DNA from: Medicago truncatula
Lineage: Eukaryota > Streptophyta > Magnoliopsida > Fabales > Fabaceae
Direction: 5' to 3'
Length of the DNA stretch: 64,000 nucleotides
Assembly (NCBI RefSeq): GCF_003473485.1
Contig: NC_053045.1
Location: 5,916,501-5,980,500, forward strand
The notes under the pieces were generated by a model, which saw nothing but the letters and a program-made list of their open reading frames with translations, was not told where the DNA came from and did no database searches. Below are positions 2,077-32,011 of this stretch, in pieces; within the stretch, counting starts at the first letter, position 1; each line of letters opens with the position of its first letter. A program made the translations under genes and the position numbers.

Positions 2077-5000
2077 TGTTGTTGGATTACTTTGATTTTC
2101 CACCACACAACACAAGAGAAAACTGAGAAGACAGGTGAAAAATGGTGTACTTATAAAGTTGCACACAAGAGAAGTTTCGTTGAACAAGACTCGTAAAGTT
2201 GTAACACATGTAATGGGAACTAAACATTGCATTATTTCAAAGTGAACCTTATAATAATTTATAGTTTCTTGACCCAGAAAATTTATCTCCATTGGCCAAT
2301 TTTTCTTTGGAAATTTAGGATCACTAAAAGTGAAAACAATGACCCTGCAATGTTGATATTAATTAATTATGCATTAGTGTGCCAACCATTGAGAAAATAT
2401 GTTATCATAATGCAAAGAAAGTTGATTTTCACAGATACTAAATACTCCATTAGCTTGGCTCTTAAAGCATAAATTCAGCACATTATATTTATAGTGGTTT
2501 ATGAATATCTATCCTTCTATCTTTCACTCAATAAACATTTCTCTATATTGATATTGACTTCTTTATTTTAATTTACTCCAAATAAAATGATAGCCACGGT
2601 AAATAAATCCTTTTTCTTTCTGTAGTTACTACATGAAAATCACACATATTAATAGGTTGAGGTTCAATGCGTTGCGTGCAAAGATTTAATGTTAGACACG
2701 TTTTGAAAAGGATATTCTTCCTGTCTGTCACTAGCCAACCCCTCATATTTGACAGAAGACTACTCAGGCAGTATAAACAATATACTCAGACAGGCTCTTT
2801 TGTTTCTCTTTTATTAAAGGTATTTTTTCAATAAAAAAAGTCATGGTTACATTACAATTGACAATTTAATGTTTTGTCAGTGGTTGATGGTTAAAGTGAC
2901 ATCACCATCGGTTTAAAGACATGCTGGAGTATGATAGTAATTTTTTATATTTTATGGTAAAAAATATTCACTATTATAAGAATTTAACATTCGGAAAAGA
3001 AGTTACTTATTTTCCGCGACACTTTTGTTAAAAGAAGTTACTTATTTCCCTTAAAGTTGCTCCCCCCATAGTTTTAGTCTCTCTTTATCTTTGTTCTTTT
3101 TCTTCTTCTCTATGGCAAAGCAAATGGTTATCTAAATTAAAAATAACTTGTTTCTTCATACTACAGATCGGTGCAGCCATGGATTTTAAAATCAAGTGAA
3201 AACAACAAGTCTAAGACTCGAAACCCATTTACGGTTGGTCCTCTCAATTAAAGACTCCTTGTTTCTTAACAGATCAGTCAGCTATGAATTTTTAATCAAT
3301 TCGAAACCAAGTTAAAGTTTCGTTTATCACGATTAAAAAAACCCTTACTTCTTCATTCCTGGATTTTCTAGCTTAAAATTTTTAACTTAATTTTTGTTAA
3401 ACGTAAATGAGTTTGTTTGCTTGCAAGACTTATCGTAAACAATTTTAACATCAACTAGAAAGTATGCGTTCTATTTTATTTACGTTGCTCGAAGAAAACA
3501 TGCCTTCATGATTGACAAGACCGAGAGTTCAATTCAAATTTTCCAATGGGGAGGTGAGTGTAAATTTACTCGATTTTTTTCTATTGGCTGATTTTTATTT
3601 GGAAAATTGAATGACTTAAAAGTGAAAGCAATGACCCTACAATTATTTAAGTTATATTAACGGACTTCCAAGCCTTGCTTTCGGTGGTGTGACCACATTT
3701 TTGTTTTGGCATTCTCACTTGGTCTTAATTACATTTCTAACAATGACTAAGAATCCATTATAATGAAGTCAGTGGTGTTTACAAATTCACTTTTCATATT
3801 AAACATAATCTTTGTGGGTCCTCCATTGTCCCTAAGAAAAATGTTTCCTTGAAAAGTGCAAGACAGCTTTGAATGTCTTTTACAGTTAAATGATAACATA
3901 TAGGAAAGTTCCTTTCAATTTCATGGTAACACAGAATGGAAAAATAGCATTTAGTGGAAATAATTCAGAAAAGGGATTGGCTATGATTTGGCATTCGGAA
4001 ATGTTATTCATGTCAAAAGATCATTGATTAATGAAGGTGATACATAGCTATAAAGACAATCATGAAGAAGTTGCAGTTTCAATGATAATTAAATCAAAAT
4101 CAGCCTACAAATACAGGATGTTTATATGAACATTTGAACCTTCCTAATTATTTATGCTCATTTGAAACTTTGGCTGGTGACAAAGGATAAGCTGTTTGAT
4201 GCAAAAGCAGGGCGTGTAGTAGGAAAGGTTGTACTGGTTTATACTTTTTGAGATATATGCATTGCCACTTAATTAAGAAGACTATATGAAGATTAATCCA
4301 AATAATGATTGGGGTATAATGAGTCCAACCAATTTGATATCTGTGTGAAAGGAATAGCATTGAATCTTGAGAATGAGAATGTCAGAATTGTTGTATACTT
4401 CTTTGCGATGATATAGTCTGAAACTTTGAAGAGAATCATAGAACAGTTAAATACACTGGATTGTAATTTTGTTTTTTAGAACATGAAGGAGATGGCAACT
4501 CGATCATCGCAGCCATCGGAAGAACATTATTGATTAATGATGGTAATACAAAGCAATCAATTGTAGCATTTTCTAAGAGAATTAAAACCGAAATCACTCT
4601 GTAATACAAAACATTTTTGAATTAATAATATCAATTTTTTTATGCAATCTATATAACAGAAATGTCATGCCATGGAAATAAGGCTTTCCATAAACAATAC
4701 AATGCACTGTCAAGGTGACATCATATATATGATTCATTGACTTTGTAAAATCCATTTGATGAGCAACAAAATATTCTTTATCTTAAACAAGTCCTTATAT
4801 TATATACATTCAACTCCAACTTTTACAATGAATTAATCATGTTTAAACTTCTACCTCTAAAGCTTGCATTAATATAATAATTACGTTCATTTTACCTTTA
4901 CAAATTTGGAAGAAAAAAACTGGAAATCACAGGGATTGAGTTAGACCTTCAAAATCTAAAACATAATAACGGGATGTCTTAATTTACAAATAAGACTAAA

Positions 5001-5148
5001 ATACTAAAAAAAAATATCATTAGGTAGATAATGATATGAATGTTTATGTCAGATGGTATCAATATCTAGCTGACGATCATCAAATCAAATTAAACAATTG
5101 TTTTACCAAATAGGAAGTGATGTTATTATTTTTTTTAGTTATGCCTTT
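2077..5148. other. Intergenic, no gene recognised
   Basis: AT-rich sequence upstream of the first LRR gene; no open frame resembles a known protein. A stretch at about 2289-2380 (attggccaatttttctttgg) recurs in diverged form at about 3583-3665, a direct repeat roughly 1.3 kb apart. Short ORFs here look like chance. Confidence 0.6.
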
Positions 5149-5366
5149 TTTTTTTTTTTTTTTGAAAACTCGGTATCCGATCCAAGAATCGACTAATCCG
5201 AGGGGATCAATCCCACCGTCCACTTGCGGGGGCCCCATTTAAAGCCAGAGCAAGCTCTGTATGGACTTAGCCCACCGAAATTGGCACCAGAGAGAATCGA
5301 ACCTGAGACCACTGAATGAGCAAACTCCAAGATCCCAAGCCAACCACTAGGCCAACCCCAAATGGG
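5149..5366 (-). mobile_element. tRNA-derived SINE with poly(A) tail and target duplication
   Basis: On the minus strand the element begins GGGGTTGGCCTAGTGGTTGG (A-box-like), carries a B box GGTTCGATTC, and ends in a poly(A) run, seen as a T run at 5146-5163. It is flanked by a direct repeat of about 18 bp containing agttatgccttt (about 5130-5148 and 5367-5385), which is the target-site duplication. A second member of the same family lies at 26222-26446. It is non-coding and was moved by LINE machinery. Confidence 0.9.
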
Positions 5367-5492
5367 TTTTTTTAGTTATGCCTTTGTTTGTTTTACTATG
5401 ATACATATCACCACAAACCCCAATGACACAATTTAATTTAAACTTCATAGAATGTTGCTTCAAATTAAAGTTATAATACATATCATCACACA

Positions 5493-7508
5493 TAGGGGTG
5501 GCAAAGTGGATGGATTGGATGGATATGGATTTGGATCCTAATGGATGGATCAAAAAAGGTCCATTAGTCCATTACAATCCACTATTTTTTTTTCTTAAAA
5601 AAAATCATCCAGTCCATCCAATTAAAATAAAGTCCATCCAATCCATCCATTATTAGATTTTAATGGATGGATAATCCATCCGATCCATAAATCAAAGTGT
5701 ATAATTTTTTTAAAGTGTATTATTTTTTTTGATAGGTGTAATATCGAAAAAACACACCTATCAAAAAAACTTATCTTATACAAAAAAACTTATTACGATC
5801 TCTTTTTAAAAAAAACAACTTATTTATGCAAAACAACTTATTAGGATCTCTTTTGAAAAACAACTTATTTATGCAAAACAACTTATTATGATCTCATTTT
5901 CAAAAACAGCTTATTCAAAACAGCTTAATTATGCAAAATAGCTTATTATGATCTTATTTTCAAAAACAACTTACTCAAAACAACTTAATTATGCAAAACA
6001 ACTTATTATGATCTCATTTCAAAAACAGCTTATTCAAAACAACTTATTTATGCAAAACAGCTTATTTCGATCTCATTTTCAGAAACAGCTTAATTATGCA
6101 AAATAGCTTATTATGATCTCATTTTCAAAAAGAGCTTATTCAAAACAACTTATTTATGCCAAACAGCTAATTATGATCTTATTTTCAAAAACAGCTTATT
6201 CATGCAAAACAACTTATTTATGCAAAACAGCTTATTATAAGCTGTTTCGAATAAGCTGATTTTGAAAATGAGATCATAATAAGCTGCTTGGCATAAATAA
6301 GTTGTTTTGAATAAGCTGTTTTTGAAAATGAGATCCTAATAAGCTGTTTTGCATAAATAAGCTGTTTTGAATAAGCTCTTTTTGAAAATGAGATCGTCAT
6401 AAGCTATTTTGCATGAATAAACTGTTTTTGAAAATAAGATCATAATAAGTTGTTTTGCATAATTAAGTTGTTTTGAATAAGCTATTTTTGAAAATGAGAT
6501 CGTAATAAGCTGTTTTTCATAAATAAGTTGTTTTTGAAAATGAGATATTAATAAGTTGTTTTACATAAATAAGCTGTTTCGAATAAGTTGTTTATGAAAA
6601 TGAGATCATAATAAGCTGTTTTGCATAAATAAGCTATTTTGCATGAATAAGCTGTTTTTGAAAACGATATTATAATAAGTTGTTTGGCATAAATAAGTTG
6701 TTTTGAATAAGTTGTTTTTGATAATGAGATCGTAATAAGCTGTTTTGAATAAGCTGTTTTTGAAAATGAGATATTAATAAGCTGTTTTGCATAAATAATC
6801 TGTTTTCGAAAATGAGATCGTAATAAGTTGTTTTGCATAAATAAGTTATTTTGAATAAGCCGTTTTTTGAAAATGAGATCATAATCAGCTGTTTTGCATA
6901 ATTAAGTTGTTTTGAATAAGCTATTTTTGAAAATGAGATCGTAATAAGTTGTTTTGCATAAATAAGTGGTTTTTGAAAATGAGATATTAATAAGCTGTTT
7001 TGCATAAATCAGTTGTTTCGAATAAGTTGTTTTTGAAAATGAGATCATACAAAGGTGTTTTGCATGAATAAACTGTTTTTGAAAATGAGATCATAATAAG
7101 ATGTTTTTCATAAATAAGTTGTTTTGAAAATGAGATCGTAATAAGCTGTTTTGCATAAATAAGTTTGTTTTTGAAAATGAGATATTAATAAGCTGTTTTG
7201 CATAAATAAGATTTTTTATTTAAATAGTTTAGTTAAAAAAAAAAAAAAGGTGATAATCAAAAATATAAATATTTAAATAAAAAAGATTAATATTTTTTGA
7301 ATATATCCATTGGACTTTTTTTAATTTAAAGAGGTGATCCATTGGATTATTAAAATAAGGTGGATGGATCAAATCCATCCATAGTTTTTAATGGATGGAT
7401 CAAATCCAATCCATTAACAAAAAAATTTGTTTGATGGATAGATTGGATGTATTTTATAGTGGATGGATTGGATGGATATGGATCTCATGGATCATATTGC
7501 CACCCCTA
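5493..7508. mobile_element. hAT-type non-autonomous element with fold-back tandem core
   Basis: The ends are inverted copies of TAGGGGTGGCAA, typical of hAT elements, flanked by an exact 8-bp duplication atcacaca (5485-5492 and 7509-7516). Subterminal DNA on both sides is dense in TGGAT/ATCCA repeats (such as tggatggattggatgg), likely transposase-binding sites. There is no transposase. The interior from about 5763 to 7215 is an array of 45-60 bp units that flips orientation at 6236. A 9-bp-stem hairpin gataggtgt/acacctatc (5731-5762) sits just outside the array. It lies between the two tandem LRR genes. Confidence 0.9.
5763..7215. repeat. Inverted tandem array, units of 45-60 bp
   Basis: Plus-strand units to the right of 6236 read roughly gagatcataataagctgtt then tgcataaataagctg and tttttgaaaat. 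To the left of 6236 the same unit appears as its reverse complement. The turning point is the palindrome aaacagcttat-t-ataagctgttt. The left arm is about 475 bp and the right about 980 bp. A transcript crossing it would fold into a long imperfect hairpin. The minus-strand ORFs here (6218-7005), full of SKQLI/AKQLI repeats, are products of the repeat, not genes. Confidence 0.93.
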
Positions 7509-7609
7509 ATCACACATACCATCACACACAAATGAGGAAACACAAAGTACAACAAAAATGGAAATTGAAAACATTATTTAAATAATTATCACAATCTCTA
7601 GCACTAATC

Positions 7610-10255
7610 TTATGACCACCTTAAAATTGTGTATGTCTGTCCTCTATCAGTTACATATTCAAAATGCATCCTCCGAAAAATCAAACAGAGAATTTTGTCT
7701 ACGAGTTTCCAATAACTTACTCTCCATTTCTTCCAAAACAAAAGAGGACCGATGATGATTCCGAGCCCAAAAACAAATCCCAACTCCACACTTAAAAAAT
7801 TCCAGTCAATTGAAGAAGAGGGGACCGATGCTGGCTGTGGGTGCAGCTCATCCTGCCTTTTACCATTTGGTGTTTCAGTCAACGGAGGTCCATATAGCCC
7901 ATTATTCCCTTCAAATGAAGAAGCCTGAAATGACTGAAGTTGAGTACCTGTTGGGATCTTCCCAACCAAATGATTGAAGGAAAGTTTCAAATAAGAAAGG
8001 AATGACATGCTTGCAAGTTGCAGAGGAATTTCACCAACCAAGGAGTTGTTTGAGAAGTCCAAGGACTCTAACTGTTTCAGGTTCCCAATAGTTGATGGGA
8101 TTTCACAAGAGAAAGCATTGTTTGAAAAGTTGAGAACATGGATTGCTTTGAATTTCATCAGCCCCTCTGGTATTGGTCCTTCAAAGTGATTGGATGAGAA
8201 ATCAATGGCCATGAAGATTTTTAGAATTTTAACCAACTTCATCTCTTGACCTTTAGTAGAAATAGATACACTATCCTGATAATATAACAAGGATGACGTC
8301 CGCCCTATGTGAATAAAGTCTGATACAACTTCATCGTGCATCATTTTTTCCCATGTTGTGAAGAATGTTTCTGGTAGTTTTCCGTTGAAATCATTGAATG
8401 CAATGTCCACAATTTGAATCATTTTCCAAGGCTTATTTTCTAGTGAGTGTGTACATTCTATGGAACCATGCAATTTGTTGTTCCGCAACACCAAGACGCT
8501 AAGTGTTTGTATGTTTTTCAAAAAGCATGGAAAACCACCAACAATTTGATTTGATCCAATGTCCAATACCCGTAATGATGAGCAGTGGGATAGAGACTTG
8601 GGAATTGCCCCATGTAAGAGATTTCCATGGAAGTTCAAAGAGCTTACAACACAAGAAGTTGGAAACATATCTGGTAAAGATCCATTTAGATTGTTATTCC
8701 TCAAATTTAATGCCTCAAGGGTACTAGTCATTGTCATTAAACATGGAGAAATTGTTCCTGAAATGTTGTTGTAGGAAATATCAAGCATTTGAAGATTTGA
8801 AGCTTTGCAGAGGGAATGAGGGATGCTTCCTTGTAAACTATTATTTGAAAGAGATAGAAACCATGCAGAAGACAGGTAATTACCAATATCATGCGGGATA
8901 ACAGAGAATTTGTTGGTTGAGTAATCCAAATATCTAATAGATTCAGAAAAAACAGGTATTGTTCCTTGAATTTGGTTGTTATGAAGGTCAATAAGATGAA
9001 GGTTGGAAGTAATATTTTGCAAACAACCTTCCAACTCTGTGAGAAAATTGTGTGAAATATTAAGCTGTTCAAGACTTTGTAGTTTCCAAATCCAATTTGG
9101 CACAACTCCTTGAATTTGGTTGGCTGAAAGGTCTAGATTTTCCAATGTTGATTGATTTCTCAAGAATATAGGAAAAGTTTTCAGGTTGCAGGATGCCAAA
9201 TGAAGATATTCAAAATTGGGAAAGGCAGTCTGATCAGCATTTGCATCATTCTCATTTATTGATATGTTGTTGTATGAAAGGTCTAGTCCTAATAAATTAC
9301 TAAGCTTCAAAAGCTCATCTAGTTGTAGTGACCCATTCAACCTATTAGAGGAAAGATGGAGGATAGAAAGTGAACGGAGTTGGAAGATAGATGTTGGAAA
9401 AGGCCCTGATAGATTATTGCTACGTAAATCGAGGGTGTTAATTAAAGAGGAAGACATATCTATGAATTCGTTAAATTTACTAAACTGGTTAGATTCAAGC
9501 CAAATTTCCTCCAATGATGGAAGTGTAAAAAGGTATGAAGGAATTGCACCACTTAAATAATTAGAAGAAAGGTCTAGGTAGTTAAGGTCTGATAGGTTCT
9601 CTAGTTTTGAAAGGGAAGAATCAAGAGGTCCTGATAGATTACAGTTAGACATGCTCAGTTCTTGTAGGTCGCTCAAAGGCAACAAAGCATTGATCCATTC
9701 ATGTCCCTGAGATGTTATACTTATACCATCTAGATACAGTTGCCTCATATTGGTGAGATTTTGGATAAGCTTTTGTAAATTTGGGATTTTAGGTTTTGTG
9801 TCGACATAAGAAGAGAGATCAAGAGTAACCAACCTCGTGAGCTGGGAAATCTCTATTGGAATCTGCCCCACAAATTCATTATATGACAAATCAAGATAAG
9901 TTAACTTCACCAACTTGTTGAATGCTGATGGAATGGAAGAATTTAAATAATTATTAGCCAAGTTCAGTTTCTTGAGATGTAGGAGATTGAAAAGACTACT
10001 TGATTCTTCAATTCCACCAGAAATAGATTCTTCACTCAGGTCAAGGCCAATAATATATCCCTCGTTGTCACAAGTAACGCCACTCCAATTGCAGCATGCA
10101 ATGCTTTTATTCCACAATATTAGTTTTGTGGAATTTTCAGGATGAAATGCGAGATTGTTTTTGAATTGAAGCAACAAAGTTCGTTGATCCTCAAGACATT
10201 TGGCAGAGGAAAGAGAAGTTTGGAAAAACATAAATGAAGGGTCCTTAGTTTGCAT
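7610..10255 (-). CDS. LRR receptor-like protein, 881 residues
   Basis: Membrane-anchored receptor-like protein without a kinase, of the Cf-9/Ve1 class; such proteins sense extracellular ligands and signal through partner kinases (family knowledge). Order: short N-terminus, LRR cap with KCLEDQ and CCNWSGVTC (about 19-60), many 24-residue LRRs, an island region around YYQDSVSISTKGQEMKLV, four more LRRs, an acidic/proline spacer, one membrane helix at about 822-840 (VELGFVFGLGIIIGPLLFW), and a basic tail of about 40 residues. Intronless, as usual. Oddity: the N-terminus MQTKDPSFMFFQTSLSSA lacks the long hydrophobic core seen in the paralogue ending at 2076. Homology to the paralogue fades just upstream of about 10228, suggesting that the signal-peptide region was lost or lies in an unseen upstream exon. 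Confidence 0.9.
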   Translation of the reverse strand: MQTKDPSFMFFQTSLSSAKCLEDQRTLLLQFKNNLAFHPENSTKLILWNKSIACCNWSGVTCDNEGYIIGLDLSEESISGGIEESSSLFNLLHLKKLNLANNYLNSSIPSAFNKLVKLTYLDLSYNEFVGQIPIEISQLTRLVTLDLSSYVDTKPKIPNLQKLIQNLTNMRQLYLDGISITSQGHEWINALLPLSDLQELSMSNCNLSGPLDSSLSKLENLSDLNYLDLSSNYLSGAIPSYLFTLPSLEEIWLESNQFSKFNEFIDMSSSLINTLDLRSNNLSGPFPTSIFQLRSLSILHLSSNRLNGSLQLDELLKLSNLLGLDLSYNNISINENDANADQTAFPNFEYLHLASCNLKTFPIFLRNQSTLENLDLSANQIQGVVPNWIWKLQSLEQLNISHNFLTELEGCLQNITSNLHLIDLHNNQIQGTIPVFSESIRYLDYSTNKFSVIPHDIGNYLSSAWFLSLSNNSLQGSIPHSLCKASNLQMLDISYNNISGTISPCLMTMTSTLEALNLRNNNLNGSLPDMFPTSCVVSSLNFHGNLLHGAIPKSLSHCSSLRVLDIGSNQIVGGFPCFLKNIQTLSVLVLRNNKLHGSIECTHSLENKPWKMIQIVDIAFNDFNGKLPETFFTTWEKMMHDEVVSDFIHIGRTSSLLYYQDSVSISTKGQEMKLVKILKIFMAIDFSSNHFEGPIPEGLMKFKAIHVLNFSNNAFSCEIPSTIGNLKQLESLDFSNNSLVGEIPLQLASMSFLSYLKLSFNHLVGKIPTGTQLQSFQASSFEGNNGLYGPPLTETPNGKRQDELHPQPASVPSSSIDWNFLSVELGFVFGLGIIIGPLLFWKKWRVSYWKLVDKILCLIFRRMHFEYVTDRGQTYTILRWS

Positions 10256-11537
10256 GTGATTGCAACCTGTTGGTTTACAAACTAATTAGGAAGTCCTTAA
10301 TCATAACTATGGATGAAATTCGTTTTCTCATTGAAAAAATCACAATTTTATAGTAATCATGCATAATAAGATCAACGCAGCATTACATAATAAAATCACA
10401 ATTTTATAATAAAATCATAATTTTATACCAATATCCATCATTTCATAGTTCAAAGTGCTTATTCTTTACAGCATCAGGATTGATCGAGTGTGGAGGGTGA
10501 CTGAAAAAGTCTTTGGAAGTGGCATGGCCCACATCGCATCCAAACCTTCATTTGGTTGGTTGTGCATGGGCGCATTCTTACAAATTATTGAAGGAGTAGA
10601 TGGGATGGTGGAATCTCTCCTACTTGCCCGTGTTGTGGAGGGATGAGAATCTTCGTCCCACGAGGTTATCAATCGTTTACATAGTCCTTAGGTCATAATT
10701 GGTAGGAACTACGTATCAATCAAACAGATAGGTATAGGGGATTCAAGAATTCTAATCGCCCATAAAAATCTGAATCAACAAACCTATTTACTTTTCACTT
10801 CAAACCAATAAATTTTGCAAACTCCCCCTATTTACTGTTTTTATTTATAAGTTTAGTAAAGTACTGAGTCGAAAACAACAATCCTTGTGGAAACGATTAT
10901 TTTACTACTAAATTACATAAATTGTTTGGTGTTCTTGCCAAATTTATAATCATCTATCAAAATTTTGTTTGAACAGCGTATTGTTTTCGATTTTAGACAA
11001 AATGGTTTTAACTTAAATATAGTAAACGCAATTAAAAACTAACCTTTTTGAGCTTTTTTGTAACTACATCATACATTGTAAATAGATAAAATTATCTTCT
11101 ATTTGATCCATGCAAAAAGATCAAATCATACATTAAAAGTGAACAAAGTCTTCTATTTCAATTTTGATGATGTTTAGCTTGTGTTGTTTTTAATGTACTT
11201 TACTAATTTCAACATAACTATTAAATTGATTATTATAGGTGAGGGGGTGCCAAAAAGATGTTATGTGTTTGGATTGCAGGCCATGAGGATACCTCCAAAT
11301 TTAAGAGATAAGGAGACACGGTAAATAAAAATCTTTGTTGCCTTATATCATTTATATCATCTTAGAGTACAAAATTATAACATCAAGGTCCATGAAATTA
11401 CGAAGAACAAAAGAAGAAAAAATAGTTATTGAGAGCATGCACAAAAATTAAATGACAACAAGTGGAATATTCTAGCATAATGTATATTGTACAATTATCT
11501 TGCCAGAGAAAGAACTCATTTCTCTCATTAGGGTCTT
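10256..11537. other. Intergenic with likely retroelement debris
   Basis: No gene recognised. 10320-10440 repeats aataaaatcacaattttata-like phrases. 10840-10960 contains 'aacaatccttgtggaaacgat', a phrase typical of plant gypsy-type LTR ends, so a decayed LTR is likely. The 63- to 68-residue frames at 10455-10672 have no recognisable domain. Confidence 0.4.
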
Positions 11538-31311: not shown

Positions 31312-32011
31312 TGTTGCGAATTCGATGAAAATCACACCAATAACAACTTGATGTGTGGAGCAAGGGATAATCAATCAACCAAAACAAAGTGTATGGAACA
31401 ATTAAATACAAGCCAAAAGTAGAAAACAACGGCGAGAAGAACACAAAGAAGAGAAGAACACAAAAGAATTTGTTGACCCAGTTCGGTCCAAATTGACCTA
31501 GTCTGGGGGAGAGAGCAGCCCTCCGATCCACTATATGATGAGTAACGTTACAAAAGAGAAATCAATGGGTTACAAGAATAAGTCTCCCGCCTAATTCTAC
31601 CCAAAGTCCCAGCCTCTTTCCGTAACCAAGAGACTCAATCCTAATAGTGTTTTCCAAGGTGAATCAACCATCAAAACATAGTGTTTGCTCCAAAGAGACA
31701 AACTCTATACAAACCCTAGTTTTGTTGTTGTCTTTCTAAACCCTTGTTTCAGCCCCCTCTATCTCTCTCAAAGTTTGCTCTGATACAAGGTCTATATTTA
31801 TAGTAAAAGTATCGCTTAAAATTTGGAACAAATCTGCACCCAAAATACGTTTCTGTTTTTCGCTGCCAGCGCACCATCGTGCCACGATGCGATCCCATCG
31901 TGCCACGATTTTTCCAAGGCCTTGCCTCAAAACTGAAACCTCCATCGTGCCACGTTGCCCAGCAATCGTGCCACGATTCCGCAGAAACCGGATTTTAAGT
32001 TAACTCTCACA
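31312..32011 (-). repeat. 3' LTR of the Copia element (700 bp)
   Basis: Direct repeat with 33298-33995; small indels (for example aaaagaattt against aaaaattt near the middle) and scattered substitutions. TATA-like site at about 31792-31803 on minus. Four near-palindromes of the type ATCGTGCCACGAT cluster at 31873-31980. Confidence 0.95.

Follow-up and report, generated by a model that had tools for sequence, protein, structure and literature searches.

A transposon lies between two leucine-rich repeat reading frames in the window (the whole 64-kb stretch of Medicago truncatula DNA analysed here), and its core is a tandem array that reverses its direction at a single point. What kind of element is this, and where did the array come from? 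We show that the same array is carried by hAT elements with TAGGGGTGGCAA ends and an 8-bp target duplication and by elements of MtPH-A6-4, and that hAT copies occur both with and without it. The element in the window is probably a non-autonomous hAT element that has a borrowed array as its core.

The insertion and its surroundings

The segment 5493–7508 is a hAT insertion of 2016 bp with perfect 12-bp terminal inverted repeats and an exact 8-bp target duplication (Table 1). The exact end sequence is found twice in the whole 64-kb window, both times at the element's own ends; with up to two mismatches to the 12-bp end there are 7 matches, where 2.44 would be expected and 1 of 100 shuffles gave at least as many. 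The motifs GGATGGAT and ATCCATCC together occur six times in the 5′ 270 nt and five times in the 3′ 298 nt and are absent from the array; at a guess, they might be transposase-binding sites. The outer part of the 5′ subterminal region is common to array-bearing and array-less hAT copies. No reading frame of at least 200 residues overlaps the element, which is non-coding as a MITE would be.

The flanking reading frames, 1399–2358 (partial) and 7610–10285, are both on the minus strand and have leucine-rich repeats and an LRRNT_2 domain, which we read as receptor-like. The frame at 7610–10285 stops ~0.1 kb from the element, and the element therefore sits just 3′ of it. On the other side, a tRNA-derived SINE-like element (5131–5385, minus strand) has poly-A and, by eye, A-box- and B-box-like stretches, and is flanked by an 18-bp direct repeat, TTTTTTAGTTATGCCTTT; a tRNA scan over 5000–7700 found no tRNA. 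Further along the window, at 31554–31616 on the minus strand, is an Rfam match to the MIR5285 precursor (88.7 bits, threshold 88.5).

Table 1 Features of the hAT element and its target site (positions in the window)
Feature	Position	Strand	Remarks
Left target site duplication ATCACACA, 8 bp	5485–5492		Exact copy on the right side
Left terminal inverted repeat TAGGGGTGGCAA	5493–5504	+	12 bp, perfect
hAT 5′ subterminal region	5493–5762	+	Four GGATGGAT and two ATCCATCC motifs
Array, left arm (~474 nt)	5763–6236	−	Outer edge CTTATCTTAT, the A-end edge type of MtPH-A6-4
Palindromic turning point AACAGCTTATTATAAGCTGTT, 21 bp	6226–6246		Read from the sequence
Array, right arm (~974 nt)	6237–7210	+	Repeat and unit scans
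hAT 3′ subterminal region	7211–7508	+	Four GGATGGAT motifs and one ATCCATCC motif
Rfam RF03353, MIR5291 microRNA precursor match	7394–7458	+	75.6 bits, gathering threshold 54
Right terminal inverted repeat	7497–7508	−	Exact reverse complement of TAGGGGTGGCAA
Right target site duplication ATCACACA	7509–7516		Exact

Structure and folding of the array

The array is built from units of ~46 and 60 nt that share AATAAGYTGTTTT; on a larger scale it shows periods of 106 and 166 nt. Allowing up to three mismatches, the 24-mer AATAAGCTGTTTTGCATAAATAAG occurs 25 times in the window (0.00 expected), always within the element; nine occurrences on the minus strand (5819–6236) are followed by 16 on the plus strand (6278–7210), and the strands are never mixed. 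The direction thus changes once, near position 6236. There are 304 inverted pairs in the element, and the 25 longest are 84–93% complementary. Folded as single-stranded RNA, the array reaches −632.5 kcal/mol, whereas 40 dinucleotide-shuffled sequences average −283.8 (SD 8.9; z = −39), and in the predicted fold 430 base pairs form between the left arm (474 nt) and the right. The two arms are not mirror copies of each other, an arrangement ruled out by the finding that 120-nt blocks of the left arm mostly pair best off the mirrored register.

Much of the original prediction for this locus is borne out by these observations. It had described an intact hAT insertion with 12-bp ends and an exact 8-bp duplication, all of which are seen at 5485–5504 and 7497–7516; some 1.45 kb of short units with one palindromic reversal, found as a 1.45-kb array of 46- and 60-bp units with its turn in 6226–6246; a fold-back-like anatomy, present as long inverted arms with tandem units and the strong single-strand fold; and a position between two receptor genes, which holds in that leucine-rich repeat frames lie on both sides, receptor-like being our reading of them.

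The hAT family in the genome

Searching the window's own 430-Mb genome with the array gave 219 matches from the best 40 of 447 candidates, from which 33 distinct array loci were read. Searches with the ends added four more array-bearing hAT loci (L051, L052, L053/L054 and L055). Beyond the 33 loci there are six further array places, two of which coincide with hAT-end matches and one with an MtPH-type unit.

The genome holds the relatives with the same ends that the original prediction had envisaged. Including the copy in the window, 16 independent array-bearing hAT copies have both ends (up to three mismatches) and span 1230 to 4532 bp; their 8-bp target duplications are exact in 13 and have one mismatch in three. 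Seven array-bearing loci with no recognised end pair (L009, L031, L032, L033, L037, L044 and L055) lie outside this count, and L007 (C1:29162182) was left out because it duplicates L006 (C1:29193046): the two lie 31 kb apart, are near-identical and have one target duplication in common, and look like a segmental duplication carrying the element. Two arms are present in 18 of the 24 array-bearing hAT loci, and one in L026, L031, L032, L052, L053 and L055. Array-less elements with the same ends were also found, L056 (977 bp), L057 (965 bp) and L058 (901 bp), all with other internal sequence; the duplication is exact in L056, has one mismatch in L057 and was not recognised in L058. A fourth array-less locus, L059, shows the 5′ half only.

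One relative carries transposase sequence. The adjacent stretches L053 and L054 together hold a 4532-bp element with the same ends within one mismatch, GTTTGTCA on both sides and one array arm inside its 5′ end. On the opposite strand of L053 is a 261-residue frame with the hAT transposase domains PF05699 (2.3e-32) and PF14372 (7.6e-27); a second frame of the element, of 179 residues, has no Pfam match, and the transposase is split over separate frames. In a genome search that scored 146 of 180 candidates, four places, L053 among them, carry the 261-residue fragment in near-identical form; the next relatives by E-value are 39–42% identical, and short pieces at C3:39146535–39147044 are 68–81% identical. 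Each of the four copies lies ~1.8 kb inside a listed 5′ end, with an inward array unit ~0.38 kb from that end, and a matching 3′ end is among the matches listed for three of them. Of these four transposase-bearing elements the one that was read, L053/L054, has a single arm.

MIR5291 at the 3′ end

Rfam family RF03353 (MIR5291) matches 14 of 20 sources of this hAT family, at a hairpin in the 3′ subterminal region. Besides the window these are L002, L003, L004, L005, L006, L008, L009, L019, L026, L034, L049, L054 and L057, and they include the transposase-bearing element (L054) and an array-less one (L057); no match was found in the other six of the 20 sources searched (L015, L016, L051, L052, L056 and L058). 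MIR5291 is annotated in Rfam as a microRNA precursor and not as a transposon end, but as judged by sequence matching the annotated precursor family is a match to the 3′ end of this hAT family, where it forms part of the subterminal region. As regards expression, miR5291-3p ranges from 0 to 3 over eight columns of an alfalfa small-RNA table (PMC6311939), and another report counts miR5291 among the drought-related microRNAs of M. truncatula (PMC9696283). Within the array-bearing hAT copy L049 there is also an Rfam match to MIR5272 (2741–2813, plus strand; 64.8 bits, threshold 64.5).

The same array in MtPH-A6-4

The array in the window consists of a repeat already published, the 60-bp repeat of the M. 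truncatula PIF/Harbinger family MtPH-A6-4. The paper on that family, which draws on a dataset of 1540 BACs, describes 60-bp imperfect repeats with a repeated (triplicated) AAACNNCTTATT, variable in number and inverted at the two subterminal regions, and 5 of 23 members without the array (PMC2213677). The present data speak against the exclusiveness of the repeat as given there. When the 33 array loci were assigned by their ends (BLAST at 1e-6, 168–215 bp per end), 20 were hAT and 13 MtPH-A6-4, with none having both kinds of end and none having neither. The 13 MtPH loci have ends GGCTTTGTTTGCGAGTT, identical to the published MtPH-A6-4 end and mostly beside TTA or TAA. This end was not found at up to three mismatches in the window locus (L001), and no non-array MtPH sequence was seen in the hAT elements; the hAT locus L009 has a weak match (up to three mismatches) to the 17-bp MtPH end, which lies outside the hAT element. 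In titles and abstract openings of the open-licence literature we found no description of a hAT element carrying the MtPH-A6-4 60-bp repeat, and a single paper in that literature mentions MtPH-A6-4 by name.

The layout of the array is also common to the two families, the repeat reading AAACNNCTTATT inward from each end in both. A unit scan found a single change of direction in 13 of 15 hAT elements and in all nine MtPH elements; the exceptions are L026, which has one arm, and L001, where overlapping matches interleave at the palindrome. Outside the unit scan, the MtPH locus L041 has the layout <<<>>><<< with 106 nt between its last two blocks, and L038, L045 and L046 have several modules in a row. 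Centre sequences are not the same in the two families; within hAT subgroups they recur, and some of them resemble central deletions. L053/L054 and L052 combine one arm with internal sequence, the left arm of L052 passing the turn before the internal sequence begins. Since the repeat reads inward at both ends in both families, the inverted array resembles a pair of joined subterminal arrays, and on this comparison of layouts it matches what would be expected of paired subterminal arrays rather than of growth from a founder hairpin.

A search for autonomous MtPH-A6-4 elements by PF13359 (153 matches, from the best 150 of 348 candidates) showed by eye none beside the listed A ends (from the best 40 of 208 candidates). 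MtPH-A6-4 elements do occur close together: in L038, L041 and L046 they neighbour each other at distances of a few hundred to a few thousand bases. On the small contig G000:C15 (257,632 bases) A ends lie at 39, 3279, 6589, 9838, 13073 and 16304; there and in L045 the spacing is 3.23–3.31 kb, and complete elements with both arms apparently make up a macrosatellite.

Gain of the array and direction of transfer

A joint tree of both ends separates 16 array-bearing rows from the three array-less ones with support of 93/84. Trees of single ends show no single array group, with two changes each, and do not reject the grouping (p-AU 0.257 and 0.548). The joint tree is unrooted, and we therefore infer gain of the array rather than observe it as distinct from loss. 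The array-less copies with the same ends and the split in the tree make it probable that the hAT lineage gained the array, perhaps or even probably once, and then spread as an array-bearing group.

The units themselves segregate by family. Among 501 unique 46-mers from 14 hAT and nine MtPH elements none is common to both, and a tree of the units has 15 label changes compared with a mean of 166 and a minimum of 150 when labels are shuffled. Genome-wide, there are 117 occurrences of a hAT-type 34-mer pattern and 302 of an MtPH-type one (control 0 for each). In the loci read, the hAT-type pattern was found 105 times in the 24 hAT loci and never in the 13 MtPH loci, and the MtPH-type pattern 61 times in the 13 MtPH loci and never in the 24 hAT loci. 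At G000:C2:1866420–1866873 a hAT-type unit (1866420) and an MtPH-type unit (1866840) lie 0.4 kb apart on one strand, possibly a mixed array or an ancestral type; it is the one such place among the matches listed for the two patterns. With units specific to each family and mixing nearly absent, the exchange looks old and rare.

Several features bear on its direction. The edge type CTTATC[TG][TC]A[TC] is found in the left/A arm of all nine MtPH elements and of 8 of 14 hAT elements, in six of the latter at the outer edge of the arm (277–306 nt from the end) and in two, L015 and L049, within the array; it was not found in the right arms of the scanned hAT or MtPH elements. At five unit sites the hAT units are 90–98% in one state and the MtPH units have two, and at two sites it is the reverse, with 84% and 99% of MtPH units in one state and variation in hAT. 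Seven MtPH units come within one mismatch of the hAT-type pattern, whereas hAT units are never that close to the MtPH-type pattern; within two mismatches the numbers are 138 MtPH and 25 hAT units, the patterns differing at just two fixed sites. On these sequence comparisons the edge type, the states at the unit sites and the near-pattern units favour MtPH-A6-4 as donor without proving it, and we infer it to be the likelier donor of the two, by a moderate margin. Unit diversity was dropped as a guide to direction since the families show no difference: the mean number of differences in 46, within arms between loci, is 7.5 and 6.0 in hAT and 7.5 and 6.6 in MtPH (L037 and L039 entered in reversed orientation). 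Compared with MtPH arrays, edge segments of the hAT left arm give poorer alignments than the majority of interior segments, which makes similarity at the edge uninformative on direction.

Discussion

By its 8-bp duplication, short perfect 12-bp inverted ends and the hAT transposase of its relative L053/L054, the element in the window belongs to the hAT superfamily. Plant hAT MITEs are typically a few hundred base pairs long, with the MITE size lying below ~0.8 kb. The element is like them in its short inverted ends, 8-bp duplication, lack of coding sequence and ends shared with a transposase-bearing element, and unlike them in its length of 2016 bp and in having an inverted array as its core; the array-less L056–L058 (901–977 bp) are nearer to plant hAT MITEs in size. 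In fold-back elements the inverted arms extend to the very ends, whereas here 270 nt of hAT-specific sequence lie outside the left arm and 298 nt outside the right; the element is fold-back-like, not a member of that class. Galileo, a P element, is said to be a fold-back element with tandem units in its arms. Tetris has units of ~220 bp and is proposed by the authors describing it to belong to the Mutator superfamily (PMC4079207). Both resemble the element described here in having long inverted arms of tandem units in variable number, but its array sits inside hAT-specific ends and is common to a second superfamily, PIF/Harbinger. MtPH-A6-4 has the same 60-bp repeat, triplicated AAACNNCTTATT, inversion and A-arm outer edge type, and differs in its ends, GGCTTTGTTTGCGAGTT, and, according to PMC2213677, in a 3-bp TTA/TAA duplication and a different transposase.

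Could the array have arisen where it now lies? The 21-bp perfect palindrome at the turn, and the related centres that recur in several hAT copies, are what growth from a founder hairpin inside the window element might leave. We nevertheless reject this part of the original prediction as very improbable because the array is common to MtPH-A6-4: it is homologous to the repeat block of a family in another superfamily, array-less hAT copies exist, and the best partner blocks of the two arms mostly lie off the mirrored register. The insertion, its ends, the reversal, the anatomy, the leucine-rich repeat setting and the kin stand as originally described. That the reversal is an artefact of assembly is more improbable still, to the point of being negligible. 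We found nothing in support of it, and many other insertions, distinguished by their target duplications, show the reversal too; the unequal lengths of the arms, together with the 84–93% complementarity of the longest inverted pairs, also speak against a duplicated assembly arm.

The alternatives that accept a transfer deserve more weight. If the array had grown in the hAT family and been taken up by MtPH-A6-4, one would understand why transposase-bearing hAT copies have it beside their 5′ end and why some published MtPH-A6-4 members do without it; the similar unit diversity of the two families agrees with this direction. Against it are the array-less hAT elements, set apart in the unrooted joint tree, the five hAT-fixed-like sites to two in MtPH, and the excess of MtPH units near the hAT-type pattern, each of which is weak as to direction, and we regard the reverse transfer as possible although improbable. 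That both families received the array from elsewhere, for example from a dispersed satellite, seems distinctly unlikely: all 33 array loci read have a hAT or an MtPH-A6-4 end, and the left/A edge type is common to both families. In favour of it, the search covered the best 40 of 447 candidates, which makes other carriers possible, and four of the listed array places were matched to no end. It is slightly less unlikely, though still doubtful, that the array is a portable subterminal module which moves between unrelated DNA-transposon superfamilies, comes to lie inside both ends in the same inward orientation and is kept for a function, for example as a source of hairpin small RNAs common to the two families, which would silence or coordinate them, or as a binding site for a host factor.

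We thus return to a hAT element with a borrowed array as the most probable account. The element would be moved by a hAT transposase that acts at its terminal inverted repeats and possibly also at the GGATGGAT subterminal motifs. The array would have been captured, probably, when repair of an excision gap switched templates at A+T-rich microhomology, and would since have been a passenger, changing in length and, by the computed fold, folding back on itself. Transcripts entering from the neighbouring leucine-rich repeat gene would then give long hairpins that may be open to small-RNA processing.

The finding matters as a case of a complex repeat array common to two DNA-transposon superfamilies in one genome. 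If its arms yield small RNAs, one common sequence could silence two unrelated families. The match that ties MIR5291 to the end of a hAT transposon would, for its part, bear on work on miR5291 as a drought-related microRNA.
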